Shown one piece after another: positions 37,351 to 52,505 of a DNA stretch of 57,041 nt. Position 1 is the first letter of the stretch; each line of letters starts with the position of its first letter. Source of the DNA: Loktanella sp. (GTDB taxonomy: Bacteria > Pseudomonadota > Alphaproteobacteria > Rhodobacterales > Rhodobacteraceae); the NCBI GenBank assembly GCA_017390475.1, contig JAFPBO010000028.1, forward strand, positions 1 to 57,041, given 5' to 3'. A program made the position numbers and the translations under genes. The notes below the pieces were generated by a model. That model did no database searches. It was not told where the DNA came from and saw only the letters and a list, made by a program, of their open reading frames with translations.

Positions 37351-37469
37351 TACGATCGCCGGATCGCCACGTCCGACAAGGGCCATGGCGTCCGAGAAAC
37401 CTGCATCATAGCTGCCATGCCGCGGTGCAGAAGCATCGGGCCAGACCGGACTTTCCGATCTTGGTTTGA

Positions 37470-37525
37470 AGCAGCATCGCAGCGTCACCGAACCGGTCAT
37501 TCATGCATCATGAAGCATTTCATCA
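37470..37525 (+). repeat. Weak copy of the dispersed repeat, next to the IS3 remnant
   Basis: GCAGCATCGCAGCGTCACCG followed by AACCGGTCATTCATGCATCA and TGAAGCATTT resembles the core of the repeat at 39665-39759 (GCGCTGCGATGCAGCTTCAG, ACCGGCCATTCGTGCATCAT, GCAGCATTTT), with scattered differences. It lies between the IS3 remnant and a LysR gene. Confidence 0.4.
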
Positions 37526-37579
37526 TCATAGATCACTGCAGCACGGGCAAAGCACGGTTGAGCCATGCTGACCCACGCC

Positions 37580-38485
37580 TTAATCGCCCCGTTGCACGAA
37601 ACCGCGCAGGTGATCGACCAAGGCGGTCAGCGCGGCCGATTTCTGGCGGCGGCTCGGGTAGTAGATATGATAGCCCGCCCATGTCGGGCAAAACGGCGCA
37701 AGGCATGCGATCAGACGCCCGGCTGCCAGATCGTCACGCACCAGCGGCTCGATCACCATTGCAAGGCCGATTCCCTCACGTGCCGCATCGATCAATGTTG
37801 CGCCGTCATTGGTGATGACAGGACCAGAAACGTCGACATCAAGCGATTTTGTCCCGCGCCTCAGCCCCCACCGGTAAAGGTCGCCATGGCTTGCCGTGCG
37901 GTAATTGAGACAGGCATGCCGGGAAAGATCGGCAGGGTCTTCAGGCACGCCATGCCGGGCAAAATAATCCAGCGATGCGACAATCACTGTGCTTATGTCC
38001 GGCCCCAGCGGCACTGCGACCATGTCCTGTTCGAGATGGCGGCCAAAGCGGATACCGGCGTCAAAGCCCCCTGCAACGATATCGGTCAGGCGGTCACTGA
38101 CGTCCAGATCGACAGTGACCGCCGGATATTTGTCCAGAAACTCCCTTAGCGCCGGAAGGACAATCGCCCGTGCCGGATGCGCCATCACGGTCAGCCGCAC
38201 ATGGCCCGCAACCTCGGCACGGCCTTGCCGGATGCCGCTCAATTCCGCGTCGATTGCCAGCAAGGCGGGTGCTACGACATCAAGCAGCCTCTGGCCGGAC
38301 TCCGTTAACCGGACGCTGCGTGTGCTGCGGCGGAACAAGGCGCTGCCGAGCCGTTCCTCTAGGCCGCTCACTGCTTGACTGACGCCGGATTGCGCACGTC
38401 CCAGTCGCGCGGCTGCGCGGGTAAAGCTGCCTTCTTCCGCAACCGCAGCAAAAGCTTGCAAATCCACCAGATCGCTCCGATCCAT
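37580..38485 (-). CDS. LysR-family regulator, divergent from a hydrolase
   Basis: A 301-residue LysR protein: helix-turn-helix at residues 3-60 (FTRAAARLGRAQSGVSQAV), effector domain from about residue 90 with ISTVIVASLDYFARHG, and the GYHIYYPSRRQKSAAL end typical of the CrgA/PA-type group. Only about 100 bp separate it from the exported hydrolase on the other strand, which is its likely target. Confidence 0.9.
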   Translation of the reverse strand: MDRSDLVDLQAFAAVAEEGSFTRAAARLGRAQSGVSQAVSGLEERLGSALFRRSTRSVRLTESGQRLLDVVAPALLAIDAELSGIRQGRAEVAGHVRLTVMAHPARAIVLPALREFLDKYPAVTVDLDVSDRLTDIVAGGFDAGIRFGRHLEQDMVAVPLGPDISTVIVASLDYFARHGVPEDPADLSRHACLNYRTASHGDLYRWGLRRGTKSLDVDVSGPVITNDGATLIDAAREGIGLAMVIEPLVRDDLAAGRLIACLAPFCPTWAGYHIYYPSRRQKSAALTALVDHLRGFVQRGD

Positions 38486-38585
38486 TCATCACCTATTTGA
38501 TAGACCTATTCACATTTAACAGCATAGTGATTTGAGAGCGCTGGGTCTATCTCTGCCAGACATTCACAATCTTATGGAGTTTCCC

Positions 38586-39350
38586 ATGCCTGTCTCGCAT
38601 TCGATTTATCGCGCAGCCCTCGTCGCGCTCGCCCTGACTTCAACACTGCCAACCCTGGCGCAAGCGGAAGTCGATCATATCGTGCTCGTCCACGGCATGG
38701 GCATGGATGGCAACTCCTGGCGACCCGTCTATGAACGGCTCACGGGAAATGGACAGGATGTGTGGGTTGCGCAACTGCCCCAGACCTCCGCCGAGGCGGA
38801 CATAGCAGCACTCCGGCGGCTTATGGACAATCTGGACGGCGACATTCTTCTGGTCGGCCATTCCTATGGCGGCATGGTCATCACAGAAGTGGGCATCGCT
38901 CCGGACGTGGTGGGGCTCGTCTACGTTGCCGCGTTCCAGCCGGACGCGGGTGAAACCATGGCGGAACTGTCGGCGACGGTGCCGTCGGAGCTACCGCAGG
39001 ACGGCGTTTTGATAACGGATGACGGCTATATCACGTTGAAACCCGATGTCGTCGCCGATGTCGTTGCATTCGATCTGCCAGCCGAAGAAGCCCGCTATAT
39101 TGCGCATGCGCAAAAGGCGGCGAGCGGTGCGATCATGGGCCGAGTTACCAGCGATGTCGCCTGGACCACCAAGCCAGCATGGTCGATCATCGCCACACAG
39201 GACGGGGTCATCGCCCCGGCGCAGCAAGAAGAGATGTCGGCCCGCTCTGGGGCCACAGTCACCCGGATCGAGGGCGGCCACCTCCTGCCACTTGCGCATC
39301 CTGATGCCGTCGCGGACGTTATCGAAGAGGCGGCACGCAGCTTGCAGTGA
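38586..39350 (+). CDS. Exported alpha/beta hydrolase
   Basis: A 254-residue hydrolase with a signal peptide ending LPTLAQA (about residue 27). The oxyanion segment VLVHGMGMDG (34-43), nucleophile Ser93 in LVGHSYGGM, an acid in ATQDGVIAP and the final His in EGGHLLPLAHP complete the triad. It is likely an esterase or lactonase acting in the periplasm on a small ester; substrate unknown. The ATG at 38586 follows GGAG by six bases. A large hairpin follows the stop. Confidence 0.88.
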   Translation: MPVSHSIYRAALVALALTSTLPTLAQAEVDHIVLVHGMGMDGNSWRPVYERLTGNGQDVWVAQLPQTSAEADIAALRRLMDNLDGDILLVGHSYGGMVITEVGIAPDVVGLVYVAAFQPDAGETMAELSATVPSELPQDGVLITDDGYITLKPDVVADVVAFDLPAEEARYIAHAQKAASGAIMGRVTSDVAWTTKPAWSIIATQDGVIAPAQQEEMSARSGATVTRIEGGHLLPLAHPDAVADVIEEAARSLQ

Positions 39351-39362
39351 AGCAACGACCGG

Positions 39363-39412
39363 CGCGGTGGTTTGCAGAACCCGGGCTTTTGGTCCCGGCG
39401 CGAACCACCGCG
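39363..39412 (+). terminator. Nested hairpin after the hydrolase gene
   Basis: CGCGGTGGTT (39363-39372) pairs perfectly with 39403-39412, and inside it CCGGG (39381-39385) pairs with CCCGG (39394-39398) around a CTTTTGGT loop. It begins 13 bases past the hydrolase stop. There is no T-run after it, so it may be a factor-dependent end or part of the decayed dioxygenase segment it overlaps. Confidence 0.35.
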
Positions 39413-39545
39413 TCATGGAACCATGCCACGCTATTGCTCAGCCGTCTTTGATGCCGAGCATGGAATTCAATCTACAACTGGCGACATCCCCGGTCGAAGT
39501 CATCATCCCGAAGGCATGCCGATTGATGATTTGGATTGGAGCTTC
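39392..39545 (+). pseudogene. Decayed 3' end of a second PhyH-type dioxygenase gene
   Basis: One frame reads IAQPSLMPSMEFNLQLATSP followed by VEVIIPKACRLMI. The intact dioxygenase at 39971-40762 ends with MAQPPLMPSMEFDPKLTPSP and VQIAIRKACGLMV. DNA matches are also strong. Only about 45 codons of the C-terminus remain, fused to unrelated upstream DNA. A copy of the dispersed repeat follows about 120 bases later, as it does after the intact gene. Confidence 0.75.
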
Positions 39546-39664
39546 ACTACAAATGCCTTGGGCTGGCTCACTGCCGACTTAGGATGAGGCGCGGAATCTG
39601 CTTGATCAAGATCCGACCAGCGCGGCGAGTAGCGGCCCATTGCGGCCGCCCGGCAAAGTGATCG

Positions 39665-39759
39665 GCGCTGCGATGCAGCTTCAGCAGACCGGCCATTCGT
39701 GCATCATGCAGCATTTTCGGAGGGTGAAGGTAGGCAGACGGGACTGAGTGGACATTCGG
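39665..39759 (+). repeat. Dispersed repeat, copy A
   Basis: Core words in order: GCGCTGCGATGCAGCTTCAG, ACCGGCCATTCGTGCATCAT, GCAGCATTTT, GGGTGAAGGTAGGCAGACGG, and GTGGACATTCGG. The same order recurs at 40919, 51661 and 52424. It lies between the decayed and the intact dioxygenase copies. No protein frame is shared between copies, so it is not simply a gene fragment that I can name. Confidence 0.75.
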
Positions 39760-39970
39760 GTTGGTCATTAGGGTGCCCGGTCTTGCTTGGCCTCGCGGTA
39801 GTATCGGGATCGCCGAACTTGACCTGAACGAGGAGCCGCGATAGCCAAAGGACTGTGATGTTTTCTTCGACTTTCTTCCCGCGATTCTGAGCGACCCCCG
39901 TCGCAGGCGCTCCGGCGCTTATTGAATCATGGCGGCTTCGCATCGCGAATGCCGATAAGGAGAATGTGAA
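39760..39970. other. Spacer before the dioxygenase gene
   Basis: No gene is supported. The last bases hold AAGGAG (39956-39961), the ribosome-binding site of the dioxygenase. A minus-strand frame here has no recognisable motif. Confidence 0.4.
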
Positions 39971-40762
39971 ATGTCAATTCCCAAAGAAACTGGCTTGACC
40001 TCGGATCAGGTCCAAAGCTTCATAAACAACGGCTTCGTAAGGGTCGATGATGCCTTCAGTCGCGACCTCGCGCAAGACTGCCGAAATGATTTGTGGGCCG
40101 ACATCGGCCTCTCCTTGGACCGGCCCGAGACGTGGACAGAACCGGTCGTTCGTATTGGCTCGAAAACATCGCCACCCTTCGTGGCGGCTGCCAATACGCC
40201 GCGCCTTCATGCCGCCTATGACACTCTCGTCGGTGAAGGTCGGTGGCTGGCCCCCCAGGGGCTCGGAACCTTCCCGATCCGCTTTCCGTCACAGGACAGC
40301 GCTGGGGATGATGGCTGGCATGTGGACATGAGCTTCGGAACCGGCGATCCCGACTTCATGGAATGGCGGGCCAACGTCATGAGCAGCGGAAGGGCGCTGC
40401 TCATGCTCTTTCTGTTCTCGGATGTCGGACCTGGCGACGCTCCCACACGGATACGGAAGGGGTCGCATGCCACCATAGCCCGCGAGCTTCTGCCCCACGG
40501 CAAGGCCGGCGACACACTCCGGAATCTTTCGGCTGAGAGCTACGCCTCCACGCAAGACTGCGAGATCGCTCTTGCCACCGGAGCAGCTGGGACGGTTTAC
40601 CTTTGTCATCCCTTCGTGGTTCATGCCGCGCAGCCGCATCATGGGACCGAGCCGCGCTTCATGGCTCAGCCACCTCTGATGCCCAGCATGGAATTCGATC
40701 CGAAGTTGACACCGTCGCCAGTTCAGATCGCCATCCGGAAGGCCTGCGGTTTGATGGTATAA
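39971..40762 (+). CDS. Phytanoyl-CoA dioxygenase-like (PhyH) protein
   Basis: A 263-residue protein of the Fe(II)/2-oxoglutarate-dependent PhyH family. The iron ligands appear as H117-x-D119 in WHVDMSF and a later His in CHPFVVHAAQ (H218, with H213 nearby). R229 in GTEPRFMAQPPL is the expected 2-oxoglutarate-binding arginine. The N-terminal helix LTSDQVQSFINNGFVRVDD is typical. Substrates range from acyl-CoAs to small metabolites and antibiotics; this one is unknown. It is bracketed by two repeat copies and preceded by a decayed copy of its own 3' end. A good SD is nine bases upstream. Confidence 0.88.
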   Translation: MSIPKETGLTSDQVQSFINNGFVRVDDAFSRDLAQDCRNDLWADIGLSLDRPETWTEPVVRIGSKTSPPFVAAANTPRLHAAYDTLVGEGRWLAPQGLGTFPIRFPSQDSAGDDGWHVDMSFGTGDPDFMEWRANVMSSGRALLMLFLFSDVGPGDAPTRIRKGSHATIARELLPHGKAGDTLRNLSAESYASTQDCEIALATGAAGTVYLCHPFVVHAAQPHHGTEPRFMAQPPLMPSMEFDPKLTPSPVQIAIRKACGLMV

Positions 40763-40918
40763 AACGAAGGAGTTCCGGGATCGAAGTGCGGTTCCGGAAC
40801 CTTGCCGCAAATGTCGTGGAGGGCTCAAACCGGCCTTGCGGTGTTAGGGCGTCCTAGGCGCAGTATAAGACAGATGGCCGTTGTTTCCGGCCCACACCCG
40901 CCGTTCGCTTCGTGGCCG

Positions 40919-41003
40919 AGCGCTGCGGTGCAGCTTCAACGAACCGGCCATTCGCGCAGGGTGCAGCATATTTTGACGGTGAAGGTTGGCAGAGCAGACG
41001 AAG
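40919..41003 (+). repeat. Dispersed repeat, copy B
   Basis: GCGCTGCGGTGCAGCTTCAA, ACCGGCCATTCGCGCAGGGT, GCAGCATATTTT and GGTGAAGGTTGGCAGAGC appear in the same order as copy A. It lies about 157 bases after the dioxygenase stop and just before the convergent end of the NTF2-like gene. Confidence 0.75.
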
Positions 41004-41018
41004 CTGCCGCTTGCTTGA

Positions 41019-41387
41019 TCAGCTATAGCTTTTGACAACTGAAATGCAGTTTGCCTTGGTATTTGTAAACTCAAACACGTGACAGAAGCGTCGAGTATGC
41101 CCGTTCGCCAAGGTCACTTCTCCGTTCGCAGAACCGACTTTACCGTGCGAAATGGCGTGCAGAACTGTAATTGAGGCGGGTTTCGGCCGAGACCCAAGGT
41201 ACTCAAGAAGCGCATTCTTTCCTGACATAAGCTGTGTTGCTGTTTGCTCCCAAGTCACCTCCTCGCTGAATGCCTCCGGCATAGCTTCGCCACATTCCAT
41301 TGCGACAGACACATCCTGAACAAATTGGTTCTTCGGGGAATTGCCACAGTCCTTGCTGCCTTGAATTTGGGTCAACCTTACCTCCAC
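41019..41387 (-). CDS. NTF2/SnoaL-like small protein
   Basis: A 122-residue protein with the cone-shaped NTF2-like pattern: GSKDCGNSPKNQFVQDVSVA helix at the start, an EEVTWEQTATQLMSGKNALLE middle (marking about residues 42-62) and three strands ending VTLANGHTRRFCHVFEF and SVVKSY. Members are small enzymes or binding proteins; the function here is unknown. The start is GTG at 41387. It is flanked by copy B of the repeat and by a repeat of the other type at 41435. Confidence 0.8.
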   Translation of the reverse strand: MEVRLTQIQGSKDCGNSPKNQFVQDVSVAMECGEAMPEAFSEEVTWEQTATQLMSGKNALLEYLGSRPKPASITVLHAISHGKVGSANGEVTLANGHTRRFCHVFEFTNTKANCISVVKSYS

Positions 41388-41434
41388 TTTCTGCTCGATG
41401 TCAGCATACGACCGACTTTCTGGCGGTCAACAAG

Positions 41435-41515
41435 GGCTCGAAAGCTGTCATGCGGGAGTGCGGCAGGACTTGCCTTCAATGAACACGGCAGTCCATCGCT
41501 GACGGCCCAAAGCCG
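41435..41515 (+). repeat. Second dispersed repeat type (matches the left half of copy D)
   Basis: GGCTCGAAAGCTGTCATGCG, GGAGTGCGGCAGGACTTGCC, TTCAATGAACACGGCAGTCC and ATCGCTGACGGCCCAAA recur at 52323-52403 with few changes. At 52 kb this sequence is joined directly to an A-type repeat; here it is separate. It lies upstream of the NTF2-like gene. Confidence 0.75.
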
Positions 41516-41553
41516 CGGCTGGTCGAGCCTGCCCAACTTTGCGGTGCGGCCTG

Positions 41554-41724
41554 TCAAAGCGGAAATTGCCGACACTGCCATGACCTGAACAGGCTCATGG
41601 CGTGGGATTCCCGGACTTCCCTCCTGACCGACATGCCGAGCGTCGGAACTATGTCCGTCACCTCAGCAAAGAAAACCAAAATCCAAAATATGGCAAACCA
41701 GACATAGTTGTCAGAGTTAATCAT
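41554..41724 (-). CDS. Small membrane protein coupled to the LysR gene
   Basis: A 56-residue frame whose ATG overlaps the LysR stop as ATGA (41721-41724). Residues 8-28 (YVWFAIFWILVFFAEVTDIV) form one hydrophobic helix; the tail is Arg-rich and enters repeat DNA. It could be a real translationally coupled small protein or the 5' stump of a larger membrane gene cut by the repeat. I do not recognise it. Confidence 0.35.
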   Translation of the reverse strand: MINSDNYVWFAIFWILVFFAEVTDIVPTLGMSVRREVRESHAMSLFRSWQCRQFPL

Positions 41725-42653
41725 GTATCTGTCACCTGCCACCTGCCAGCAGCCAGTCTTCGTATCATGATGGCGATGGCCGATACTGCGATGTCTGTAC
41801 CGCTGCCGTTGTCAGGATATATCAGGCCATACCCCCCCATGCTTGAGGGCAGATCAACCGGAAGCACCTTTAAAAGCCGGTGGCGGGCGCAGTAATCAGC
41901 AATACTTGCGGGAAGCACCGCCAGAAGGCGGTCATTTTCCAATAGAACCGTTGTGGCGAGGGTCGATGATGTCTCGACCCGGTGGCGTGGTGGCGGCAAG
42001 CCTTCACGCGAGAACGCGAGATCAATGGAGGCACGCATTGGGCTGGGGCGCGGTTGCAGAATCCATTCCATTTCGGTCAGGTCCTGAAGGTGAAGGTTTT
42101 TGGTTGTCGTCAGTTGATGTCCAGGGGCTGCGACAATGGCTAGATCTTCCGTAAGCAGCGGTTCAAACCTGATGCCAGCCATATTGGCGATATCGACAGG
42201 TCGCCCAATACCAAGATCAAGCGCACCCTCGACCAGTCCTTCTACCAGCAGGTCTGATGTGACAACGCGTAGATCAAGGGTCAGGGCTGGCGCTTCTGCC
42301 ATGATATTCTCGACAAGGTCGACAATCAAATTTGGCACTGCTGCCATGATCGCCCCTAGCCTGACAGCACCGCTTGTGCCGCTTTGCACGGCCAATGCTG
42401 TGTCGCGCATTCGGATCGCATTCGACAGGATCAACCGTGCAGAACGCACGACCTCTTCGCCTGCGCGGGTTGGGATCATGCCACGTGGGAGGCGATCAAA
42501 TAATAATACACCCAGTGTGGATTCCAATTCCTTGAGCATTTTGGTCGCACCGGGCTGCGACAGGCTGACCTCGCGGGCGGCAGCGTGAAGGTTGCTGGTC
42601 TCGCTGAGCGCGATGACTAGCGCAAGCTGCCGGAACCGCAGCCGCGATAACAT
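41721..42653 (-). CDS. LysR-family regulator beside the TRAP operon
   Basis: A 310-residue LysR protein with helix-turn-helix at about residues 5-62 (LHAAAREVSLSQPGATKML) and an effector domain; RPSPMRASIDLAFSREGL is typical of the GbpR/CbbR-like subgroup that controls sugar or sugar-acid use. It lies about 120 bp downstream of dctM on the same strand, so it probably has its own promoter. It may control the TRAP genes, alongside the GntR protein at 48084. An upstream TTG in frame is less likely than the ATG at 42653. Confidence 0.88.
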   Translation of the reverse strand: MLSRLRFRQLALVIALSETSNLHAAAREVSLSQPGATKMLKELESTLGVLLFDRLPRGMIPTRAGEEVVRSARLILSNAIRMRDTALAVQSGTSGAVRLGAIMAAVPNLIVDLVENIMAEAPALTLDLRVVTSDLLVEGLVEGALDLGIGRPVDIANMAGIRFEPLLTEDLAIVAAPGHQLTTTKNLHLQDLTEMEWILQPRPSPMRASIDLAFSREGLPPPRHRVETSSTLATTVLLENDRLLAVLPASIADYCARHRLLKVLPVDLPSSMGGYGLIYPDNGSGTDIAVSAIAIMIRRLAAGRWQVTDT

Positions 42654-42772
42654 GGAAAAATCGAGACCCGAGGCCAAAGCTACCCACCTTTTCAGTCACT
42701 ACATGGAAAAAAGAGTGGCAGATCGCTCTGCCACTCTTCCAGACCTATCGCCCTGACAACGTCAAGTCGAGC

Positions 42773-44056
42773 CTAGCGCAACCATTCGACCAGCCCAAGG
42801 CTGACGCCCGGCACATACGTCACCAACATCAGGATGAAGAACAGCACGCCGATATATGGTATATTGGTGCGCGTCGTTTCCCATATCCCTGCCTTGGCAA
42901 TCGAACAGGCGGTGATCAGAACGCTTGCCACGGGTGGGGTCTGCTGACCCAAGGCCAGGTTGAGGGTCACGATGATGCCAAAGTGAACCGGGTCGATCCC
43001 GACGGCATTCACCAATGGCATGACGATAGGAACAACAAGAATGATCGCCGCCGCACCATGCAGGAACATGCCGAGCACCAGCAAAAGGACGTTCAACAGC
43101 GCAAGAACCACCAACGGGTTGTCACTAAATGCTGTGATCGCTTGGGCTAGCTGTTGCGGCACCTGTGCCTGCGTCAAGAATAAGCCCAGAGCCGCCGAAG
43201 TCGCGACAAGCAGCATCACGACGCCGGTTTGGCTGACACCATCCAGCAAAGCGCGGTGCATCTTGCGCAGATCAACCTCACGGTAGCCGACAAACCCGAC
43301 AAGCAGCGCCGCAGCGACAGCTAGCCCTGCCGCCTCTGTTGCCGTGACGATGCCAGTCAGAATGCCACCCAGGATGATGACTGGCAGGGTCAGTGCCCAG
43401 AACGCTTCTTTAAACGTTGTCCAGACATGACAAAGATCAAACCCTTCAGCGCGTGGCAGATTGTAGCGAATGGCAAGCACGTAAGTCACCAGCATCAACA
43501 GAAATCCACCCAGAAACCCTGGTACAACACCCGCGATGAACAATGAGAGAACTGACGTCTCGGCGATGGCGCCGTAAAGGATCATTGGGATGGACGGCGG
43601 AATGATGATGGCCAGTGATGCCGACGATGACGTAATCGCGGCCGCCAATGTCCGCGAATAGCCGCGTTTTTTCATCTCCGGGATCAAAACGGTCCCGGTT
43701 GCGGCTACGTCAGCAACAGCGGAGCCTGAGATCTCGGCGAAGACCATCGACACGCCGATGTTGACCATCCCTAGCCCGCCGCGGATGAAGCCGATCAGTG
43801 CAGAAATAAAATTGATCAACCGTTGCGAGATGCCCGAACTGTTCATCAGGCTTCCGGCAAGGATGAACAACGGGATGGATATCAGCGGGAAGGATGTCGC
43901 ACCCGAATACATCGCGATCGAGACGTCATACATTCTGTCCCAGTTGCCGCCAGTCAGCAGGATACCACCCACGGCCACAACACCAATTGCAGCAGCAATA
44001 GGAACGTTCAGCAAGATCAGACCGATCAGCGAAAAAGCAGTGGCAAGCAGGATCAT
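42773..44056 (-). CDS. dctM: TRAP transporter large permease (DctM)
   Basis: A 427-residue protein with about 12 hydrophobic segments and DctM hallmarks: SLMNSSGISQRLINF near residue 70, AEISGSAVADVAATGTVLIP (about 109-128), SSSASLAIIIPPSIPMILYG (about 142-161) and GQQTPPVASVL. It is the ion-coupled transport subunit of the TRAP importer. Overlaps dctQ by four bases. Confidence 0.95.
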   Translation of the reverse strand: MILLATAFSLIGLILLNVPIAAAIGVVAVGGILLTGGNWDRMYDVSIAMYSGATSFPLISIPLFILAGSLMNSSGISQRLINFISALIGFIRGGLGMVNIGVSMVFAEISGSAVADVAATGTVLIPEMKKRGYSRTLAAAITSSSASLAIIIPPSIPMILYGAIAETSVLSLFIAGVVPGFLGGFLLMLVTYVLAIRYNLPRAEGFDLCHVWTTFKEAFWALTLPVIILGGILTGIVTATEAAGLAVAAALLVGFVGYREVDLRKMHRALLDGVSQTGVVMLLVATSAALGLFLTQAQVPQQLAQAITAFSDNPLVVLALLNVLLLVLGMFLHGAAAIILVVPIVMPLVNAVGIDPVHFGIIVTLNLALGQQTPPVASVLITACSIAKAGIWETTRTNIPYIGVLFFILMLVTYVPGVSLGLVEWLR

Positions 44057-44607
44057 GTCCGTGTCTCCGGTGTGTTTTCAGCTTCAGCTTCGGCGATAGC
44101 TGCCGCGATGCTTTCATGTTCTTTGTCTATACCTTGCAGCATGTTGGTTAACTCGCGCGGCAGGTTCATTAACGTAGCTAGAATGATCAGACCGGATGTC
44201 ACCGGAATTACGGATTGGACCACCGACATGGGGACCCAGCGCAACGACAACAGCGCATCAAAGGTCAGAAAATTCAGCAGTTTCCAGCCATACCACCCGA
44301 CAATGGCGAAGAAGATGATCAACAGCGCCTCGCCCAGAAGAAAGACGATAATACGGGGCGCCACCGGCATTGCCAAAACGATCCCGGAAAACCGCATGTG
44401 CTGCCCCAAAAGAGCTGCGTAGACAGCGGCAAAATAGGTCATCCAAGCCAACATGACCTGTGCGATTTCATCATACCAACTGGGTGATGCGCCAAGCCAA
44501 CGCATCGTTGAAGCGTAAATGACGATTGAGGCCAGCGAGACAAGGATTGTGATGCAGATCGCCTCGATCACATGCACAATCGCGGTGCGAAATAGTTTCG
44601 GAAACAT
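44053..44607 (-). CDS. dctQ: TRAP transporter small permease (DctQ)
   Basis: A 184-residue protein with four hydrophobic helices and the DctQ pattern WYDEIAQVMLAWMTYFAA (about residues 42-59) and HMRFSGIVLA. It forms the membrane unit with DctM. Its start codon follows dctP by about 70 bp. Confidence 0.92.
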   Translation of the reverse strand: MFPKLFRTAIVHVIEAICITILVSLASIVIYASTMRWLGASPSWYDEIAQVMLAWMTYFAAVYAALLGQHMRFSGIVLAMPVAPRIIVFLLGEALLIIFFAIVGWYGWKLLNFLTFDALLSLRWVPMSVVQSVIPVTSGLIILATLMNLPRELTNMLQGIDKEHESIAAAIAEAEAENTPETRT

Positions 44608-44679
44608 GGGATATCCTGTGTGCTAGCGGCCACCCGTCACCTGACGTGCAGCCGCGCGATCTATTGTAAACCGTTCAGG

Positions 44680-45666
44680 CTATTCCGAAGCAAGCGCGAG
44701 CGCCGCGTCAATCATATCTGCAGCACCTTCGACGCGCTCGGAAAACATCGTGTAGACGGGCACCGAAGCTTCGACGAAGGCGTCACGATCAACATTGTTG
44801 ACTTCCATCCCCGCCGCTTCAAACTTTTCTAGCAGCGCGATATCTGCTGCCTCCCCTTCGGCCAGCGACCATTCCTGAACCATGGCGGCTACCTCGGTCA
44901 CGGCAAGCTGAACATCCTCTGGCATGTTGTTCCAGATACGGACACCCGAAGTGAGATAAGTTGGCGAATAGACGTGATTTGACAGAGAAAGGTATCTCTG
45001 GACTTCGGAAAGGCCGGCGCCATCGATATTGGTCAACGGATTTTCCTGCCCATCCATCGTGCCGGTCTGAAGCGCAACGAACAATTCCGAAAACGCCATC
45101 GACGTCGCATTTGCACCGTATTCATTGAACATCGCGACACGCCATTCCGAAGGCGGTGTGCGCAGTTTCATACCGTTCAGGTCAGACGGCAATGTGACCG
45201 GGCGGAGATTGTTGGTGATGTGACGAAACCCGTTTTCCCATGTGGAAATCAGTTCCAGTCCCGCGTCAGAGGCCAGAGGGGCAAGATCGGTCATCACCAG
45301 GTTTTCATGCAGCCGCAGAACGTGGTCGCGGTCCGCAACAAGAAACGGAAGGTCAAACACCGCAAATTCATCCGCCACCGTCGTCATCACGGATGACAGC
45401 AGGGTGAATTGCACCGTGCCGGTGCGCAGCTTCTGCATCAATTCGCGCTCGTCGCCCAATTGGCCGTCAGCGTAGAATTCGACAGTGTGCGCATCACCCA
45501 GACGGGACTGAAGCTCGGTCGCGAACATCTCGGCGCTGCGGCCTTGCAGGCTGTTACTTGCTGCCCCGACAGCGACGATAAAGGTATCGGCAGCAGCTGG
45601 CAGCGATACAACGGCCAATGTCGCAGCAAGCGTTACGTGCCGGACGCGGTTCAACGAAGTGATCAT
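44680..45666 (-). CDS. dctP: TRAP transporter solute-binding protein (DctP)
   Basis: A 328-residue exported binding protein with signal peptide ending SLPAAA (about residue 26). DctP hallmarks: FDLPFLVADRDHVLRL, LNGMKLRTPPSEWRVAMFNE (carrying the Arg that grips the substrate carboxylate, about residue 168), FSELFVALQTGTMDGQENPL (about 191-210). Substrates of this family are organic and sugar acids. Divergent from the sugar-acid catabolic operon. Confidence 0.95.
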   Translation of the reverse strand: MITSLNRVRHVTLAATLAVVSLPAAADTFIVAVGAASNSLQGRSAEMFATELQSRLGDAHTVEFYADGQLGDERELMQKLRTGTVQFTLLSSVMTTVADEFAVFDLPFLVADRDHVLRLHENLVMTDLAPLASDAGLELISTWENGFRHITNNLRPVTLPSDLNGMKLRTPPSEWRVAMFNEYGANATSMAFSELFVALQTGTMDGQENPLTNIDGAGLSEVQRYLSLSNHVYSPTYLTSGVRIWNNMPEDVQLAVTEVAAMVQEWSLAEGEAADIALLEKFEAAGMEVNNVDRDAFVEASVPVYTMFSERVEGAADMIDAALALASE

Positions 45667-45854
45667 GGTTTTCCTCCCTCAGGTTTCATGACGCATAGAT
45701 GACACTTTGTCTCAGCATGGCGCAACTACGTAAAATGAAATTTGCAGATCGATTGATAGCAAATAGTTATCGAAAAGCCGATATAAAGGCGATAGATAGG
45801 AAAAATTACTCATATATTTCGACATTTAATACCTTAAATGTATTGGAATATGGA

Positions 45855-45870
45855 ATTTGGCATACCAAAT
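45855..45870. promoter_or_regulatory. Perfect palindrome fitting a GntR/FCD operator
   Basis: ATTTGGCATACCAAAT is an inverted repeat with perfect six-base arms around CATA. It resembles the TTGGTATACCAA-type sites bound by FCD-subfamily GntR regulators of sugar-acid genes. It lies in the AT-rich region between dctPQM and the dehydratase operon, four bases ahead of a TTGACA (45874-45879). The GntR gene in the operon (48084) is the likely binder. Confidence 0.65.
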
Positions 45871-46003
45871 CAATTGACAAGACCTGCGATGCGAGGCAAT
45901 GCTTTATCCGTCAGCGGTGCCGAAGAGGCGCATGCCCGGCGCACCTGCGCCAGACTAGACCAACATTGCGGCGCTGCCCGCTACTCGCCTGAGGAGACAT
46001 TCG

Positions 46004-47179
46004 ATGACCAAGATCAAGTCAGTTCGCACCCGTGTGTGGAACTGGACCGGCCCTACGGTTCCGCCACAGGGCAATTTCTGCACCAATGCCTCTGACTCGC
46101 TTTACGAAAAAGGCGACGCGATGCATTCCTTCCGGTTCCACCAATGGCTGACCTGCGAAGTTGAAACAGATGATGGCACCATCGGGATCGGCAATGCAGC
46201 ATTGGCGCCGACGGTCGTCAAAAAGGCAATTGATGATTGGTTTGCGCCCTTGGTGATCGGGGAAGATCCGTTCGACTATGCCTATATTTGGGAACGAATG
46301 TACCGGCGTAGCCATGCCTGGGGACGCAAGGGTATCGGCATGACAGCGATATCCGCCATCGACATCGCAATCTGGGATCTGATGGGCAAGCTGGTGGATA
46401 AGCCCGTTTTCAAACTGCTGGGCGGTCGCACAAAGGAAAAGATCCCCGCCTATTATTCCAAGCTTTATGCCGGGGCGATCCCCGACATGCAGGCAGAGGC
46501 CGAAGAGGCGGCTAAACATGGCTACCTCGGATTTAAGACGCGTTTTGGCTATGGTCCCAAAGATGGCGCCCCGGGGATGCGCGAGAACATAAAACGTGTT
46601 GCCGCGCTGCGCGAGGTGCTGGGGTATGACGTCGATCTGATGCTTGAGTGCTACATGGGCTGGAATCTCGACTACGCGAAGCGGATGCTGCCAAAGCTTG
46701 CTGAGTTTGAACCCCGCTGGCTGGAAGAACCCGTTATCGCCGACGATGTGAATGGCTATGCCGAACTGAACGCGATGGGGATCATCCCGATTTCAGGCGG
46801 CGAGCATGAATTTTCGATCATGGGCTGCCAGCAATTGTTAGAAAAAAAGGCCGTGTCGGTCCTGCAGTATGATACCAATCGCGTCGGCGGCATCACCGCT
46901 GCCCAGAAGATTAACGCGATTGCGGAGGCCTATCAGATCCCTGTCATTCCGCATGCCGGACAAATGCATAACTACCATCTCACCATGGCCAATGCGAATT
47001 GCCCAATCAGCGAATACTTCCCAGTCTTTGACGTCGAGGTCGGCAATGAGCTGTTCTACTACATATTCGAAGGCGACCCGGAGGCAGTGGATGGTTTCCT
47101 GCAACTTGATGACAATAAGCCTGGCCTTGGCATCACTATCACTGACAAGCACCTGCACAATTTCGAGATTATAGAATGA
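46004..47179 (+). CDS. Enolase-superfamily sugar-acid dehydratase (RhmD-like)
   Basis: A 391-residue member of the mandelate racemase/enolase superfamily. The capping domain is N-terminal. The barrel shows [16 protein letters not shown] (KxR in place of the general-base KxK, about residues 182-197), metal ligands in LECYMG, WLEEPVI and SGGEHEF, and a catalytic His in [12 protein letters not shown]. The closest family I recognise is L-rhamnonate dehydratase, whose relatives include L-lyxonate dehydratases. It should convert an aldonic acid into a 2-keto-3-deoxy acid. First gene of the operon; overlaps the next as ATGA. Confidence 0.88.
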
Positions 47180-48087
47180 CCCTTTATTCCGGCATCTGGC
47201 CTGTTGCGCCCAGCATTTTTCACCCCGACGGATCGCTTGATTTGCCTGGCCAGCGCCGCGCGTTGGACTGCCTGATTGATCAAGGCGTGGACGGTATTTG
47301 CATCCTTGCCAATTATTCCGAACAGTTTCTGTTGTCCGATGATGAACGCGAAATATTGACGCGGGAGTGTTTAGAGCATGTTGCAGGACGTGTCCCTGTC
47401 ATCGTGACGATCAGCCATTTCGCGACACCGATCGCCGTCGCCCGCGCCCGGTTGGCACGCGAGTGCGGCGCGGCGATGGTGATGATCATGCCCCCCTATC
47501 ACGGAGCGACGATGCGCGGCACGCCGGAACAAGTAATCGCACAGTTCCGCGCGGTGGGTGACATTGGCCTGCCGATCATGGTGCAGGATGCACCGCTGTC
47601 GGGTGTCGATCTGCCGGTGTCCTTGCTGGTGCGGATGGCGCAAGAAATTGAGATGGTCAAACTCTTCAAAATCGAATGTGTCGGCGCGGCAGCCAAGCTT
47701 CGCGCGCTGATTGCCGCGGGCGGGCCCGCCATCGAGGGACCTTTTGACGGCGAGGAAGGCATCACCCTTTTGGCTGATCTGGATGCGGGGGCGACTGGCA
47801 CAATGACAAGCGCCATGATCGCAGACCAGATCAAACCGGTGTTGGATCATTGGGCCGCAGGTGACCGTGCTCTGGCAACGGCAGCTTATGCGCGTGTGCT
47901 GCCAGCGGTGAACCATGAAAACCGTCAATGTGGCTTTCGCGCGACGAAGGCGGCGATGTTGGCGGGGGGGGTGATCGCATCAGATTTTTGCCGTCATCCG
48001 ACGCCGGAGCTTCCCCCAGAAACGCGCGCCATGCTGCTCGAACTGATCACGCCGCTCGACCCCGTCGTTTTGCGGTGGGGGAAATGA
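47176..48087 (+). CDS. DHDPS/NAL-family aldolase or dehydratase
   Basis: A 303-residue (beta/alpha)8 enzyme of the dihydrodipicolinate synthase family. K165 in VKLFKIE is the predicted Schiff-base lysine. The usual catalytic tyrosine of the YN motif is replaced: [14 protein letters not shown] has Gln-Asp. Family members split or dehydrate 2-keto-3-deoxy sugar acids. Behind a sugar-acid dehydratase and before an aldehyde dehydrogenase, a dehydratase giving 2-oxoglutarate semialdehyde is likely. It overlaps the genes on both sides. Confidence 0.85.
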
Positions 48088-48803
48088 TGGACAATTCAGG
48101 CAACCTGCGTGACGCCTTCGGAACGGTGCCGCATATCGCGCCCAGACGCAGCCTTGCCGATGAAGCGGCCAACCGTCTGCGTGATTTGATTCTGTTGGAG
48201 CGGTTGGCACCCGGCACGCCGGTGTCCGAACGCGAACTGGCGGATGTGCTCGGCATAAGCCGTACACCGCTGAAAGACGCCTTGCGCATTCTGGAGGCTG
48301 AGGGGCTGGTCGACTACGGCCCGACGCGCCGCCCGCGCGTCGCCGACCCCTCAATTGATGAATTGCGTGACTACATCACCGTGCTTGGCGCGCTAGAAGC
48401 ATTGGCGGGTGAAATCGCTTGTTCTGAAGCCACCGCAGAAGAGCTGGAGGTGATCGAACGGATGGCCGCGCAGATGGACACGGGGCCAGATGACCCGTTA
48501 GCGTTTTTCCACCTCGACATGGCGTTCCACGGTGCCATCGTTGCAGCGGCGCATAACGCGCCCTTGGCTGAAACACATCGCCAATATAATGCGCGGCTTT
48601 GGCGTGCGCGTTTTCTATCGTCACGGCAAGTGGATCGCCGGGCCAACACATTGTCCGAACACGGCCGGATTGTTGCCGCATTGAACGCGCGTGACGCTGC
48701 TCAAACCTCTGCTGCGCTGCGGGATCATTTGCGTAGTGCGGTCGATAATGTGGCGCGAATCCGGATGGCTGCGCATAAAACCAAATCAAAGGGAAAGACA
48801 TGA
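48084..48803 (+). CDS. GntR-family (FCD) regulator
   Basis: A 239-residue regulator: winged helix at about residues 22-80 (SERELADVLGISRTPLKDAL) and an all-helical FCD ligand domain with metal-binding-type residues in FHLDMAFH and the final HLRSAV. It lies inside the catabolic operon it probably controls, through the palindrome at 45855. Two adjacent ATGs (48084 and 48087) are possible starts; the first overlaps the preceding stop, the second has better spacing to GGTGGGG. Confidence 0.9.
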   Translation: MMDNSGNLRDAFGTVPHIAPRRSLADEAANRLRDLILLERLAPGTPVSERELADVLGISRTPLKDALRILEAEGLVDYGPTRRPRVADPSIDELRDYITVLGALEALAGEIACSEATAEELEVIERMAAQMDTGPDDPLAFFHLDMAFHGAIVAAAHNAPLAETHRQYNARLWRARFLSSRQVDRRANTLSEHGRIVAALNARDAAQTSAALRDHLRSAVDNVARIRMAAHKTKSKGKT

Positions 48804-49819
48804 ATAAACCGCGCATAGGAATCATCCCCGGAGATCCTGCTGGCATCGGCCCCGAACTTATCGCGCGTCTGCTGGCCTCCGAAGACGTGGCAAAGGCGGC
48901 TGATATCCTGCTGATCGGCGATGCGCATGTCTTCGAGGCCGGCGCAGAGATTGCGGCCTTGCCGTTTGACATGGTGCCGGTGGATCCATCACAAGAGTGG
49001 GTGGTGGCTGAATCGGGTGCTTTTGCCCACGATGCAATGGACACGATTGCGCCTGATCAAGTCACGCTGGCGGCAGTGTCCGAACCTTGTGGCACGTCGG
49101 TGCTGCGTACTCTGGATCGCGCACTGGCTTTGGCGCAGGCAGGGCAAATCGACGCCATCGTCTTCGGGCCGTTTAACAAGGCGGCAATGCATCTGGCGGG
49201 CCTTGGGCACGAGGATGAATTGCACTATATGGCTGAAAAACTGGGCGTGACCGGTTACGTGTCAGAACTTAATACGCTGGACGGGATGTGGACAAGTCGG
49301 GTCACCAGCCACATCGCCCTGCGCGATGTCGCGGATACGATCACCGGTTCCAGGGTCGAAGATGCCGTGCATCTGATTGATCGGACACTGCGACGCTCGG
49401 GGCTTGCCCGGCCAAGGATCGCGGTCGCCGCATTGAATCCACATGCCGGAGACGGCGGTAATTTCGGCCGCGAAGAGATCGAGACGCTGACGCCGGTCGT
49501 CGAAAAACTGGCCGCGCGCCAGATGGCACTTACCGGCCCCTGGCCCTCTGACACTGTCTTTCTCAAGGCGGTGCGCGGTGACATTGATGCGGTTGTCACG
49601 ATGTATCACGATCAGGGCCAGATCGCGTTGAAACTGCTGGGCTTTGATCGCGGCGTGACAGTGCAAGGTGGTTTGCCCGTGCCGGTTACGACACCGGCAC
49701 ATGGCACTGCATTTGATATCGCAGGCACCGGTCGCGCAGATGTCGGCGCTATCCGCGCCGCGTTCGACATCGCTTGCAAGATGGTCACGCATTGGAACAC
49801 CGACACAGGAGCCACGTGA
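48800..49819 (+). CDS. PdxA-family NAD-dependent dehydrogenase
   Basis: A 339-residue protein of the PdxA family: GIIPGDPAGIGPEL at the start, metal-ligand histidines in VTSHIALRD, ALNPHAGDGG (about residue 213), MYHDQGQIALK and PAHGTAFDIAGTGRAD. PdxA oxidises 4-phosphohydroxythreonine; PdxA2-type relatives act in four-carbon acid catabolism after a DUF1537 kinase. No kinase is present here, so it may oxidise an unphosphorylated hydroxy acid in the sugar-acid route. It is coupled to both neighbours, which argues for a shared pathway rather than vitamin B6 synthesis. Confidence 0.9.
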   Translation: MNKPRIGIIPGDPAGIGPELIARLLASEDVAKAADILLIGDAHVFEAGAEIAALPFDMVPVDPSQEWVVAESGAFAHDAMDTIAPDQVTLAAVSEPCGTSVLRTLDRALALAQAGQIDAIVFGPFNKAAMHLAGLGHEDELHYMAEKLGVTGYVSELNTLDGMWTSRVTSHIALRDVADTITGSRVEDAVHLIDRTLRRSGLARPRIAVAALNPHAGDGGNFGREEIETLTPVVEKLAARQMALTGPWPSDTVFLKAVRGDIDAVVTMYHDQGQIALKLLGFDRGVTVQGGLPVPVTTPAHGTAFDIAGTGRADVGAIRAAFDIACKMVTHWNTDTGAT

Positions 49820-51351
49820 TGGGCTGGATACCGACAGGTAAGCATTTGATTGCTGGAAACTGGGTAGAGGGCGACGTGGCTTTTTCGTCCTCACCTGCCA
49901 GAGGCCCCGCTCATCGCTTCACCGAAGCGACGACACAAATGGTGGAGCAAGCCTGCGCTGCCGCCGAGACTGCATCATGGGACTATGGTGCCTTGCCTCG
50001 CGCCCGGCGTGCGGAGTTTCTGCGCGCCATTGCAGATGAAATTGAAGCCCGCGGTGCGGATATCACCGAAATCGGCACGCAGGAAACCGGCCTGCCCACC
50101 GCCAGGCTGGAAGGAGAGCGGGGGCGCACCACTGGGCAGTTGCGACTTTTCGCATCGCATATCGAGAAGGATGAATTTCTGGATATCCGACATGATGCTG
50201 CCTTGCCAGACCGCACGCCGCTGCCGCGCCCTGACCTGCGCCTGATCCAGCGCCCGATCGGGGCAGTGGCGGTTTTTGGTGCATCGAACTTCCCACTGGC
50301 GTTTTCAGTGCTGGGCGGGGATACAGCATCAGCACTTGCGGCAGGCTGTCCGGTGGTTGTGCGCGGCCACCCCGCCCACCCGGGTACGGGCGAGATCATG
50401 GCGCAGGCGCTAGATACGGCGCGTGTCAAACTGGGAATACCAAGCGGTGTTTTCAGCCTGTTGCAGGGTGCAGACCGCACAGTCGGCGCAGCGCTTGTCC
50501 AGCATCCTGATATCCGGGCGGTCGGTTTTACCGGTAGTCTTGGCGGCGGTCGCAGTTTGTTCGATCTCTGCGCCCAAAGGAATGAACCGATCCCCTTCTT
50601 TGGTGAATTGGGCAGCGTCAACCCCATGTTTTTGTTGCCTGCCGCAATGGTCACACGTGGCACTGCGATTGCGCAAGGCTGGGCAGCGAGCCTGACGATG
50701 GGCGCCGGCCAGTTTTGCACGAACCCAGGGATCGCCTTCATCCGCGCTGATCAGGCTGCGACTTTTGCAGAGGAAACGGCAATAGCACTGGGCGAGATTC
50801 CAGCGCAGGTCATGTTGAGCGACGGGATCGCTGCTGCATACCGCAATGGTGTGGCGCTGGTCTTCAGTGCGGCGGGTGTGCAGACCAAGGTTATGGGACA
50901 AGCTGACGGGCGCAATGCGACCAGCCCCGGCCTTTTTATTGTTTCCGCGAATGACTTTCTAAAGACACCCAGCCTTTCGCATGAAGTTTTCGGGCCATTG
51001 GGAATTGTTGTCACGGTCAACGATGATGATCAGATGGTAGCACTGGCGCGCAGTTTGACTGGCCAATTGACCGCGACCTTGCAGATGGACAAAGAAGATA
51101 CCAACCTCGCCCTCCGCCTTGTGCCTGTCTTGGAACGTAAAGCGGGTCGTGTTCTGGCCAACGGTTTCCCCACCGGAGTCGAGGTATCCGATGCAATGGT
51201 CCATGGCGGCCCATACCCGGCTAGCACAAATTTCGGGGCGACCAGCGTCGGAACTTTGTCAATCCGGCGCTGGATGCGCCCAGTCTGCTATCAGGACCTG
51301 CCACACGAAGTTCTGCCAAATGATTTGACGCGACAGAGCGTTGAAAGTTGA
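49819..51351 (+). CDS. 2,5-dioxovalerate-type aldehyde dehydrogenase
   Basis: A 510-residue aldehyde dehydrogenase. Catalytic Cys300 in GAGQFCTNPG and Glu263 in FFGELGSVNP are present, as is the cofactor-binding GFTGSLGGG. The length and the motifs match 2-oxoglutarate semialdehyde (2,5-dioxovalerate) dehydrogenases, which end the Weimberg-type pentose, glucarate/galactarate and hydroxyproline routes by giving 2-oxoglutarate. AGGAG precedes the ATG, which overlaps the PdxA stop. It is the last gene of the operon. Confidence 0.9.
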   Translation: MGWIPTGKHLIAGNWVEGDVAFSSSPARGPAHRFTEATTQMVEQACAAAETASWDYGALPRARRAEFLRAIADEIEARGADITEIGTQETGLPTARLEGERGRTTGQLRLFASHIEKDEFLDIRHDAALPDRTPLPRPDLRLIQRPIGAVAVFGASNFPLAFSVLGGDTASALAAGCPVVVRGHPAHPGTGEIMAQALDTARVKLGIPSGVFSLLQGADRTVGAALVQHPDIRAVGFTGSLGGGRSLFDLCAQRNEPIPFFGELGSVNPMFLLPAAMVTRGTAIAQGWAASLTMGAGQFCTNPGIAFIRADQAATFAEETAIALGEIPAQVMLSDGIAAAYRNGVALVFSAAGVQTKVMGQADGRNATSPGLFIVSANDFLKTPSLSHEVFGPLGIVVTVNDDDQMVALARSLTGQLTATLQMDKEDTNLALRLVPVLERKAGRVLANGFPTGVEVSDAMVHGGPYPASTNFGATSVGTLSIRRWMRPVCYQDLPHEVLPNDLTRQSVES

Positions 51352-51660
51352 TGAAAAGACCTGTGGGCGATGGGCTGCTGGGTCTATGTCAGACGAACCA
51401 GATTTCTGTCACGGCTGATAAGCTGTACCCAGTTGCCGTAGCACAAACGTTTTAGAAGCTTGGGCTTTTCGGGGTTTGCTTCTCTTTCATTGTCGACTTT
51501 GATTTCCGACTGGGGCTTGATAAAATCGGGCTAGCGAATGCCTGCCCGTCCCACGGCTACCGCTTCAGCTGCAGAATGGCATTCGGGTAAGGATACCCGT
51601 CCAAGTCAGCCATCGGCACGATCGGCCCTTTGCTGCCGTTCGTTAGTCATTCAGGATGCT
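51352..51660. other. Gene-free stretch after the aldehyde dehydrogenase
   Basis: No gene is supported. It contains GGGTAAGGATACCCG near 51585-51600, a short inverted repeat (GGGTA/TACCC), and otherwise no recognisable structure until the dispersed repeat starts at 51661. Confidence 0.4.
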
Positions 51661-51750
51661 GCGTCGCGGCCCGTAGAAGCGGCCATTCGTTTTTCATGCA
51701 GCATTTTCAGTCGGCTAATGTCGGCAGAGCGGGATGGAGCGGACAGTCAT
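51661..51750 (+). repeat. Dispersed repeat, copy C
   Basis: GCGGCCATTCG, TCATGCAGCATTTTCAG, TCGGCAGAGCGGGATGGAGC and GGACAGTCAT follow the order of copy A. It lies about 105 bases before the SUKH-like gene, which has copy D on its other side. Confidence 0.7.
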
Positions 51751-51854
51751 CAGGCCGATGCTCGAAAAAACTTTCAGGCATGATTGCCAAGTATATCAAT
51801 TCGGTGAGACTATATCAGAAATGCCAGTGGCCGCACCCGTCGTAATGGAACGTA

Positions 51855-52301
51855 ATGCACCTAGTGTTCGAAAAATTTCGTGACTTATGCGAAAATGGTA
51901 TCGTCGCCGGCCCAGCGTCAGATACGCAAATTAAAGACGCCGAAACTGCTTTGCGGGTCGTTTTTCCGGACCAGTATCGCACTTTCCTACGAGGCTACGG
52001 CGCACTTGTGGCTCAAGGCATTGAGATTTATGGAATAATCTATCCAGTTAAGAACGATCCCCCAATGTGGCAGCAAGTTGTCGAAACGACTCTACAGCTA
52101 CGATCGTGGAAACAAGCAGGTTCTGAAAACAGTGGTATGATTCCAATTTCTCAGGATGGTGCAGGAAACTATTTCTATCTCGAGGCTGCGTCAGAAACAC
52201 AAGCCAGAGTCTGGGCCATCGGGCCAGGCATCGAATTAGTTGTAGCGTCCAGCCTACACGAATTTGCGACTGAATATGCTTCAGGGAGGTTGGTAATTTA
52301 G
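51855..52301 (+). CDS. SUKH/SMI1-family immunity-like protein
   Basis: A 148-residue protein with the SMI1/KNR4 (SUKH) pattern: PASDTQIKDAETALRVVFPD, QYRTFLRGYGAL, GIEIYGI, then MIPISQDGAGNYFYLEA and a C-terminal helix LHEFATEYA. SUKH proteins are often immunity proteins against contact-dependent or polymorphic toxins. No toxin gene adjoins it here, so it is an orphan immunity-like gene. It is bracketed by repeat copies C and D. Confidence 0.8.
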   Translation: MHLVFEKFRDLCENGIVAGPASDTQIKDAETALRVVFPDQYRTFLRGYGALVAQGIEIYGIIYPVKNDPPMWQQVVETTLQLRSWKQAGSENSGMIPISQDGAGNYFYLEAASETQARVWAIGPGIELVVASSLHEFATEYASGRLVI

Positions 52302-52322
52302 ACTCTTAGGTCTGGTAGCTCT

Positions 52323-52505
52323 GGGCTCGAAGCTGTCATGCGGCAGTGCGGCAAGACTCGCCTTCAATGAACACTGCAATCCAGCGCTGACGCGCCCAAA
52401 TCGGCCATTGACTTGATCGTCAAGCGCTGCGGTGCAGCTTCACGCGACCGGACATTCATACATAGCGCAGCATTTTTCGAGGGTGAGGGTCGGCAGAGTG
52501 GGAAT
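52323..52505 (+). repeat. Composite dispersed repeat, copy D
   Basis: The left part (52323-52403: GGCTCGAAGCTGTCATGCGG onward) matches 41435-41515, and the right part (52424-52505: GCGCTGCGGTGCAGCTTCAC, GGACATTCATACATAGCGCA, GCATTTTTCGAGGGTGAGGG) matches the core of copies A, B and C. This is the only copy in the window in which both types are joined, so it may show the complete element, about 180 bp. Confidence 0.75.

Follow-up and report, generated by a model that had tools for sequence, protein, structure and literature searches.

The window and its repeats

The 57,041-nucleotide stretch analysed here (the window) makes up the entire contig C16 (JAFPBO010000028.1) of a Loktanella sp. genome of 4.13 Mb. 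It carries a dispersed repeat whose copies are separated by accessory genes, and this repeat and the genes between its copies are the subject of our study. All evidence comes from comparative sequence analysis, and positions without a further label are those of the window. A first, sequence-only reading of this DNA had described five copies of the repeat and a repeat of a second type. The five copies were found in register on the + strand at 37494, 39690, 40945, 51680 and 52449, with 63-82% identity to the reference copy (49 nt). When a profile was iterated, with these copies as part of its input, all five were recovered with E values of 3e-20 to 3e-36 and a sixth copy was detected at 41423-41568 (E 2.7e-11). 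Profile extension gave a conserved element of about 190-300 nt. Its best-conserved word, CGGCCCA, was used as the boundary, here called the core, between a left and a right half-site. The second-type repeat proved to be real but not a type of its own: the 70-nt block 41442-41511 is 87% identical to 52330-52399 and is the left half-site common to the sixth copy (site E) and copy D. The window holds six sites in one orientation, with cores at 37437, 39633, 40888, 41503, 51623 and 52392. The sites and the intervals from core to core, which we term cassettes, are as follows.

37409..37567, + strand: site A0; core variant CGGGCC at 37437-37442; profile E 3.1e-20
37437..39632, + strand: cassette 1; LysR regulator gene 37580-38485 (- strand; Pfam, 129.9 bits) and alpha/beta hydrolase gene 38586-39350 (+ strand; Pfam, 83 bits)
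39542..39785, + strand: site A; core CGGCCC at 39633-39638; profile E 2.5e-36
39633..40887, + strand: cassette 2; PhyH-family gene 39971-40762 (+ strand; PF05721, 23.5 bits, cut-off 22)
40803..41060, + strand: site B; core CGGCCC at 40888-40893; profile E 1.5e-33
40888..41502, + strand: cassette 3; SnoaL/NTF2-like gene 41019-41387 (- strand; SnoaL_2, 23.8 bits, below the cut-off of 27)
41423..41568, + strand: site E, with the second-type repeat; core CGGCCC at 41503-41508; profile E 2.7e-11
41503..51622, + strand: interval 4 (10.1 kb) between two cores, tentatively a large cassette
51610..51766, + strand: site C; core CGGCCC at 51623-51628; profile E 3.3e-24
51623..52391, + strand: cassette 5; SUKH-family gene 51855-52301 (+ strand; SUKH_5, 58.9 bits)
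52311..52503, + strand: site D; degenerate core GCGCCCA at 52392-52398; profile E 1.7e-30

The order of genes given by the sequence-only reading (LysR and hydrolase, PhyH, NTF2-like, and SUKH between two copies) agrees with Pfam, for the NTF2-like protein weakly. The open reading frames of interval 4 were named by eye as LysR, TRAP transporter, enolase-type, DHDPS-type, GntR, PdxA-type and aldehyde dehydrogenase-type, and this interval may have lost inner sites.

Two further observations concern the left part of the array. The open reading frame 37225-37500 (- strand), by eye the C-terminal part of an IS3-type transposase, overlaps the left edge of site A0. A 96-nt repeat (39433-39528 and 40661-40756, 72% alike) shows that the end of the PhyH gene recurs as a relic before site A, and cassette 1 may therefore end in the remnant of a PhyH cassette.

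Distribution and orientation of the sites

The distribution of the sites was searched in 99 genomes with a sequence-only model of 11 copies from the genome of the window (E<=1e-4). This genome gave 21 matches. Matches were present in 50 of the 99 genomes, all of them among the 59 of the genus and family (including 47 from the genus, of which 55 genomes besides the own were searched), and the 11-copy model matched none of the 40 genomes from other families of the class. A 61-copy model gave 8 to 53 matches in each of ten chosen genomes. The sequence-only reading had named repeats spread uniformly through intergenic regions, with no link to variable genes, as the pattern that would speak against shuffling; along the genomes, the sites were non-uniform, clustered and linked to variable genes.

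Neighbouring sites shared their orientation in 53 of 55 cases when less than 5 kb apart (2 opposite, p 4e-14), in 23 of 27 at 5-20 kb and in 18 of 31 beyond 20 kb, where 18 against 13 means no coherence. These numbers were drawn from the list of ten genomes, with 150 of 188 matches used, because the other regions had been picked for clusters and some of them for co-orientation already seen. The orientation flips among clusters of one contig, for example on contigs G012:C12 and G047:C9, and a bias of the replication strand therefore does not account for the co-orientation.

The repeat was also analysed for a conserved secondary structure, which the sequence-only reading had put forward as a check, and none was detected. 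No covariation was seen in the 11 copies of the own genome. When six copies were folded on both strands with RNA parameters, 11 of the 12 folds had z values of -0.8 to +1.4, and one strand of copy C had -3.6. A structured RNA was rejected, as no Rfam model matched in the window at the gathering score and 0 of 10 pairs had a compensatory change.

A tyrosine recombinase gene ends shortly before the core

A gene for a tyrosine recombinase of 210 amino acid residues lies at the right end of some cassettes (Phage_integrase, 59 bits). From a scan of named genomes, the best 80 matches (78 loci) of at least 558 relatives were kept, so that the following counts speak for the closest relatives. In 69 of the 78 genes, an exact CGGCCC followed the stop codon at a distance of 22-24 nt. 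The consensus between the stop and CGGCCC reads tGGGCCGtCtTCacGGgCGGCCCa, and an inverted repeat GGGCCG...CGGCCC lies between the stop and the core. Where enough sequence was available, the site profile followed the gene in 69 of 74 loci. The 78 loci came from at least 25 genera named in the record titles (some titles give Alphaproteobacteria only), which we take to belong to the Rhodobacteraceae or Roseobacteraceae.

The residues R61, K89, H158, R161, H184 and Y193 were invariant in 13 recombinase sequences; these are the residues expected in an active enzyme. The protein was identified neither as XerC (NCBIfam 46.6 bits, cut-off 335) nor as IntI (TIGR02249 22.9 and 24.0 bits, cut-off 265), and a match to IntI4 in the PDB covers residues 125-196 only (2.5e-5). 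Pfam found a catalytic-type domain alone, at residues 44-195. Simple tyrosine recombinases are described as usually carrying a core-binding and a catalytic domain (PMC8138268). Judged from the Pfam result, the 210-residue protein seems to lack the core-binding domain or to have a very short one.

The number of sites per genome was 8.5 where the recombinase gene is intact or nearly so (n=11) and 4.2 where it is not (n=43, counting the own genome; p 0.002). With fragments of the gene scored as absent, the test gave p 0.0017 with the own genome and 0.0009 without it. Of 398 genomes from the phylum, 57 had relatives of the recombinase at E<=1e-40, and we know of no role for this widespread family of small integrases. 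The own genome also contains two distant relatives (42-43% identity; L206:265-888 and G000:C13:1769-2389), which have no CGGCCC site behind them.

The mobilising activity that the sequence-only reading had left without a name is most likely this small recombinase, whose gene ends 22-24 nt before the core. We assign the enzyme to the sites because of its position, its conservation and the co-occurrence of recombinase and sites. Alternatively, the host XerC/XerD or another integrase might move the same cassettes, with the small recombinase gene as the passenger of a cassette. Such a system would explain why sites occur in genomes without an intact recombinase gene, including the own genome as assembled, and other integrase genes do lie near some arrays. 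We regard this as improbable in view of the 22-24 nt between gene end and core in 69 of 78 cases, with the conserved inverted repeat, and of the higher number of sites where the recombinase is present.

Half-sites are reassorted at the core

The two halves of each element were aligned separately for 46 regions (1.02 Mb) from 13 genomes including the own. Of 174 elements 155 were kept; the others lay near region ends or had a core with fewer than 5 of 7 matching letters. In 25 pairs of elements a half was more than 85% identical. Only one half was shared in 22 of these pairs, and the 3 pairs sharing both halves all lay within one array. Ten of the 22 pairs lie within the genome G005. A gap-free two-level fit placed 18 of the 22 breakpoints at -7 to +19 of the core, and the four that it could not place were at +5 to +21 by BLAST. 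When the right half was shared, the left halves were 1-40% alike, and when the left half was shared, the right halves were 26-64% alike, compared with 48% for all pairs.

The array G005:C10 can be written as u1|B2-genes-B1|B2-genes-B1|B2-genes-B1|B2-genes-B1|v2. Here, four successive sites have the same right half-site and four have the same left half-site; the outermost halves alone differ. This is as expected if cassettes with the ends B2 and B1 had entered an older site u1|v2. In the window, the left halves of sites D and E are 90% alike over 79 nt and their right halves are unlike. The right half of site A is 86% like that of a site on contig C35 of the own genome, starting with the core, and the left halves are 7% alike. 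For the right half of site B, five of five matches in other genera begin at 40884-40888, within 4 nt of the core.

The sequence-only reading had offered homologous recombination as one mechanism of shuffling, in which case the dispersed repeats would be mere stretches of homology. Direct repeats with varying gene content between them would fit this mechanism, and a circle with one copy recombining in this way would likewise yield direct repeats. We consider it very unlikely, because recombined sites have little in common beyond the core. The shared sequence stops at or near the core, the unshared halves are little alike, and the three large copies of the window are just 70-74% identical to each other over 105 nt. 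In addition, a dedicated recombinase is located at the site.

Cassettes are exchanged between species and reordered between strains

The shuffling of cassettes that had been proposed for the window was seen in its relatives. A cassette of 2212 bp with two divergent genes is 96.3% identical in the genomes G028 and G012, and the match begins with the first base of one core and ends with base six of the core that follows. The flanking 6 kb on each side otherwise match over 39 nt only, where two different sites align. A second cassette, of 5948 bp, is 91.3% identical in G047 and G033, where it starts at the core and ends 12 nt past the start of the next core. It is also present in G012 (93.3%) with its right edge at the core.

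Plasmids were searched in PLSDB. DNA searches with single site copies gave 19 and 6 records, and a protein search gave 424 records with a relative of the recombinase. Eight of the 12 best rows, all Phaeobacter, were compared. The cassette R (1775 bp) encodes a hydrolase and the recombinase and is present in seven of the eight plasmids with at least 99.3% identity. The cassette T (6642 bp), with genes for a metallophosphoesterase, an ABC transporter and a LysR regulator, is present in six, again with at least 99.3% identity. The order was R-T in four plasmids (P92 pP92_a, P54 pP54_a, M635 and P. piscinae P18) and T-R in two (P92 pP92_b and M643), and R occurred without T in M623. P54 and M623 have backbones that are 97-99% alike on both flanks of the array. 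All 20 junctions listed for the Phaeobacter plasmids read CGGCCC. The eighth plasmid, P30 pP30_b, has a recombinase gene 82% alike in DNA, and both R and T were absent from the 40 kb examined. The orders R-T and T-R are circular permutations, as would result from opening a two-cassette circle at one site or the other.

It is still less likely that the repeats represent a non-autonomous transposable element of the MITE or REP kind, which favours insertion between convergent genes: 148 of 151 cores are intergenic and several identical copies occur within one array, as it would predict, but neighbouring copies are co-oriented, what moves is the DNA between the repeats with its edges at the core, and complementary ends are not general (mean best score 7.8, against 7.6 with the ends of other copies; scores of at least 9 in 15 of 84, against 51 of 416 such controls). 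By the same comparison of ends, the covarying terminal inverted repeats hinted at by one copy were not a general feature.

A model for the movement of the cassettes

Cassettes delimited by cores, arrays of one orientation, transfer between species, reordering and presence or absence among strains and a tight link between recombinase and site are all apparent from the compared sequences. Very probably, a site-specific recombination system uses the repeats as its sites, moves gene cassettes and works like an integron. We infer that the 210-residue recombinase acts on these sites and that the cassettes pass through a circular intermediate. Each site would consist of the core CGGCCC(A) flanked by two half-sites: the left one, of about 75-110 nt, forms the right end of the cassette before it, and the right one, of about 110 nt, forms the left end of the cassette after it. 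A cassette would leave as a circle by recombination of its two direct cores, and the circle could insert at any other core, generating two hybrid sites. Insertion would keep all sites in one orientation and leave the genes inside free to face either way. The enzyme is most likely the tyrosine recombinase encoded at the right end of some cassettes, and cassettes without this gene would be mobilised in trans.

Several observations weigh against this model. A search of 295 genomes of the family gave no second context for the window's own cassettes, but only gene matches of 64-70% and half-sites; the window itself therefore shows only reassorted half-sites (D and E; A and the site on contig C35), and variation between strains was seen in the Phaeobacter plasmids. 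The cores of sites D and A0 deviate from CGGCCC. Six matches to the right half of site A were found elsewhere, contig C35 supplying one of them; their start lies at the core in two cases and 32-34 nt after it in four. For the 5.9-kb cassette in G012, the match on the left begins 27 nt inside, and there is no CGGCCC at this point. Among neighbouring pairs within 8 kb, 3 of 85 oppose each other in orientation. An exact core is missing behind 9 of the 78 recombinase genes, 7 of which have a one-base variant by eye. Many genomes with sites have no intact recombinase gene; the own genome, with 21 sites, shows just its last 36 residues, at the end of contig C22 with a core at +22. Finally, a second junction, GGGCTC/GAGCCC, is linked to a related recombinase (see below) and complicates the anatomy of the site.

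Genes carried by the cassettes

Cargo genes were called with a simple gene caller in the 92 intervals between neighbouring co-oriented cores. The intervals had a median length of 2.4 kb (10-90%, 0.86-8.1 kb); 53 carried one to three called genes and 10 carried none. The 309 called genes ran along the site direction in 165 cases and against it in 144. The last gene pointed toward the right-hand core in 55 of 82 intervals and the first gene had the opposite sense in 59 of 82. The cores thus lie mostly at the 3' ends of genes. Families were tallied for 118 cassette proteins, chosen from 175 candidates together with the SUKH and SnoaL proteins of the window. The commonest were LysR (8), short-chain dehydrogenases (6), TetR (4), AraC (3), ABC transporters (3) and acetyltransferases (3). 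The cargo is therefore mixed, with regulators, enzymes, transport and some defence genes in both orientations. A few of the 118 proteins (alignment A7) match PADLOC models, including mad3 (3), PD-Lambda-1 (1) and AriA (1).

A second type of recombinase and relatives outside the family

Recombinases of a second type, type B, are about 67% identical to the first and have their own inverted repeat, TTGGCGAACGGC...GCCGTTCGCCAA, after the gene (L196, L219, L230 and others). Of 29 type B loci, 13 have the motif GAGCYC at a distance of 74-77 nt downstream of the stop, and 16 lack it. Three of the loci are 95-97% alike before GAGCYC and 19-40% after it. The core of type B is probably GAGCCC, about 76 nt after the stop. 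In the array G005:C10, the left half-site that recurs has the reverse of this core, GGGCTC, as its left edge, and the composite repeat may for this reason hold one core for each of two enzymes. As a lead, type B may be a second, interleaved system that shares a long composite repeat with the first.

Another 13 recombinase loci, 10 from the same family and 3 from outside, were assessed for an inverted repeat just after the stop against 60 shuffles each. At most 4 of the 60 shuffles were as good in L338, L342, L343, L345, L319 and L320, and the same held in L346 for a repeat further off. In the other six of the 13 loci, one of them with incomplete sequence, the shuffles did not support an inverted repeat just after the stop. 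L319 (Thauera pTX1, a betaproteobacterium) and L320 (Methylomonas pLM6, a gammaproteobacterium) encode recombinases of about 61% identity, and in both a strong inverted repeat follows the stop at 9-11 nt. The presence of the repeat in two of the three loci outside the family suggests that the system extends further through the Pseudomonadota.

Further features of the window

An inverted repeat pair of 92 nt (1359-1450 and 28976-29067) is 86% complementary over a distance of 27.5 kb. Beyond site D, an Hsp70-like gene (52740-54542) is followed by a 601-residue protein without a Pfam match (54868-56673); the longer open reading frame, starting at 54478, has a beginning that is J-domain-like by eye. 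In 53 other genomes of the genus, no close syntenic relative was found with the Hsp70-like neighbour. The closest matches of the Hsp70-like gene there by identity, short pieces aside, were two adjoining pieces of G017 (49-53%).

Significance and comparison with known systems

On balance, we favour the view that this is a previously undescribed cassette platform. It would combine recombinases reduced almost to the catalytic domain, short cores specific to each subfamily (CGGCCC and GAGCCC, both in the same composite repeat), recombination of long conserved sites as double strands, cassettes of which some carry their own recombinase gene, and cargo up to the size of operons across many roseobacter genera. 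No description of it was found in the literature searched, which covered few subscription papers or preprints. If the model holds, the roseobacters, abundant marine bacteria, would have a working counterpart of the integron, in which mobility extends from promoterless single genes to whole regulated operons. A dispersed family of intergenic repeats and a widespread family of small integrases would then be explained as well. The edges of the cassettes should be predictable from sequence, and accessory genes such as catabolic operons or defence genes could therefore be traced between plasmids and chromosomes.

The Xer (pdif) modules of Acinetobacter are similar, as their genes are flanked by tyrosine recombinase sites that are proposed to spread them. 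The pdif sites are described as mostly opposite in orientation, as XerC/D sites without accessory sequence and as used by the host XerCD (PMC7399989). In contrast, the sites studied here are direct, about 190-300 nt long and linked to a recombinase. The rAID arrays of Bacteroidales share with our arrays a predicted tyrosine recombinase, a gene array, a conserved intergenic motif and SUKH-type immunity genes as possible cargo. They are reported to consist of co-oriented short immunity genes (PMC12247911), whereas the cargo here is mixed by Pfam and faces both ways.

In tandemly accreting islands of the CIME/SCC type, elements that may or may not carry a recombinase stack up at att sites and have hybrid att ends in common. 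In comparison, many small cassettes occur here at dispersed sites, with 8-53 matches in each of the ten chosen genomes, and not at one attB.

Integrons, with their parts IntI, attI and attC, form cassette arrays that include chromosomal ones such as the superintegron of Vibrio. The system described here resembles them in the tyrosine recombinase, the arrays of cassettes between co-oriented sites (53 of 55 neighbours) and the exchange of cassettes between species. Gain, loss and reordering of cassettes at the core were found in the Phaeobacter plasmids and the cross-species cassettes, the window's own cassettes excepted. An attC site has the boxes R'' = RYYYAAC and R' = GTTRRRY. This pair was found in 2 of 154 elements, compared with a mean of 3.06 after shuffling, in line with the earlier statement that the array is no classical integron. 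The attI site adjoins the 5' end of the divergent intI gene, whereas the core here lies 3' of the recombinase gene, just after its stop. The cassettes are long and can carry the recombinase. The attC site is reported to recombine as a folded bottom strand (PMC2727003), whereas no conserved fold is apparent in the sites here. With no attC signature, no IntI, no conserved fold and a site that follows the recombinase gene, the system appears integron-like in function but does not belong to the integrons.

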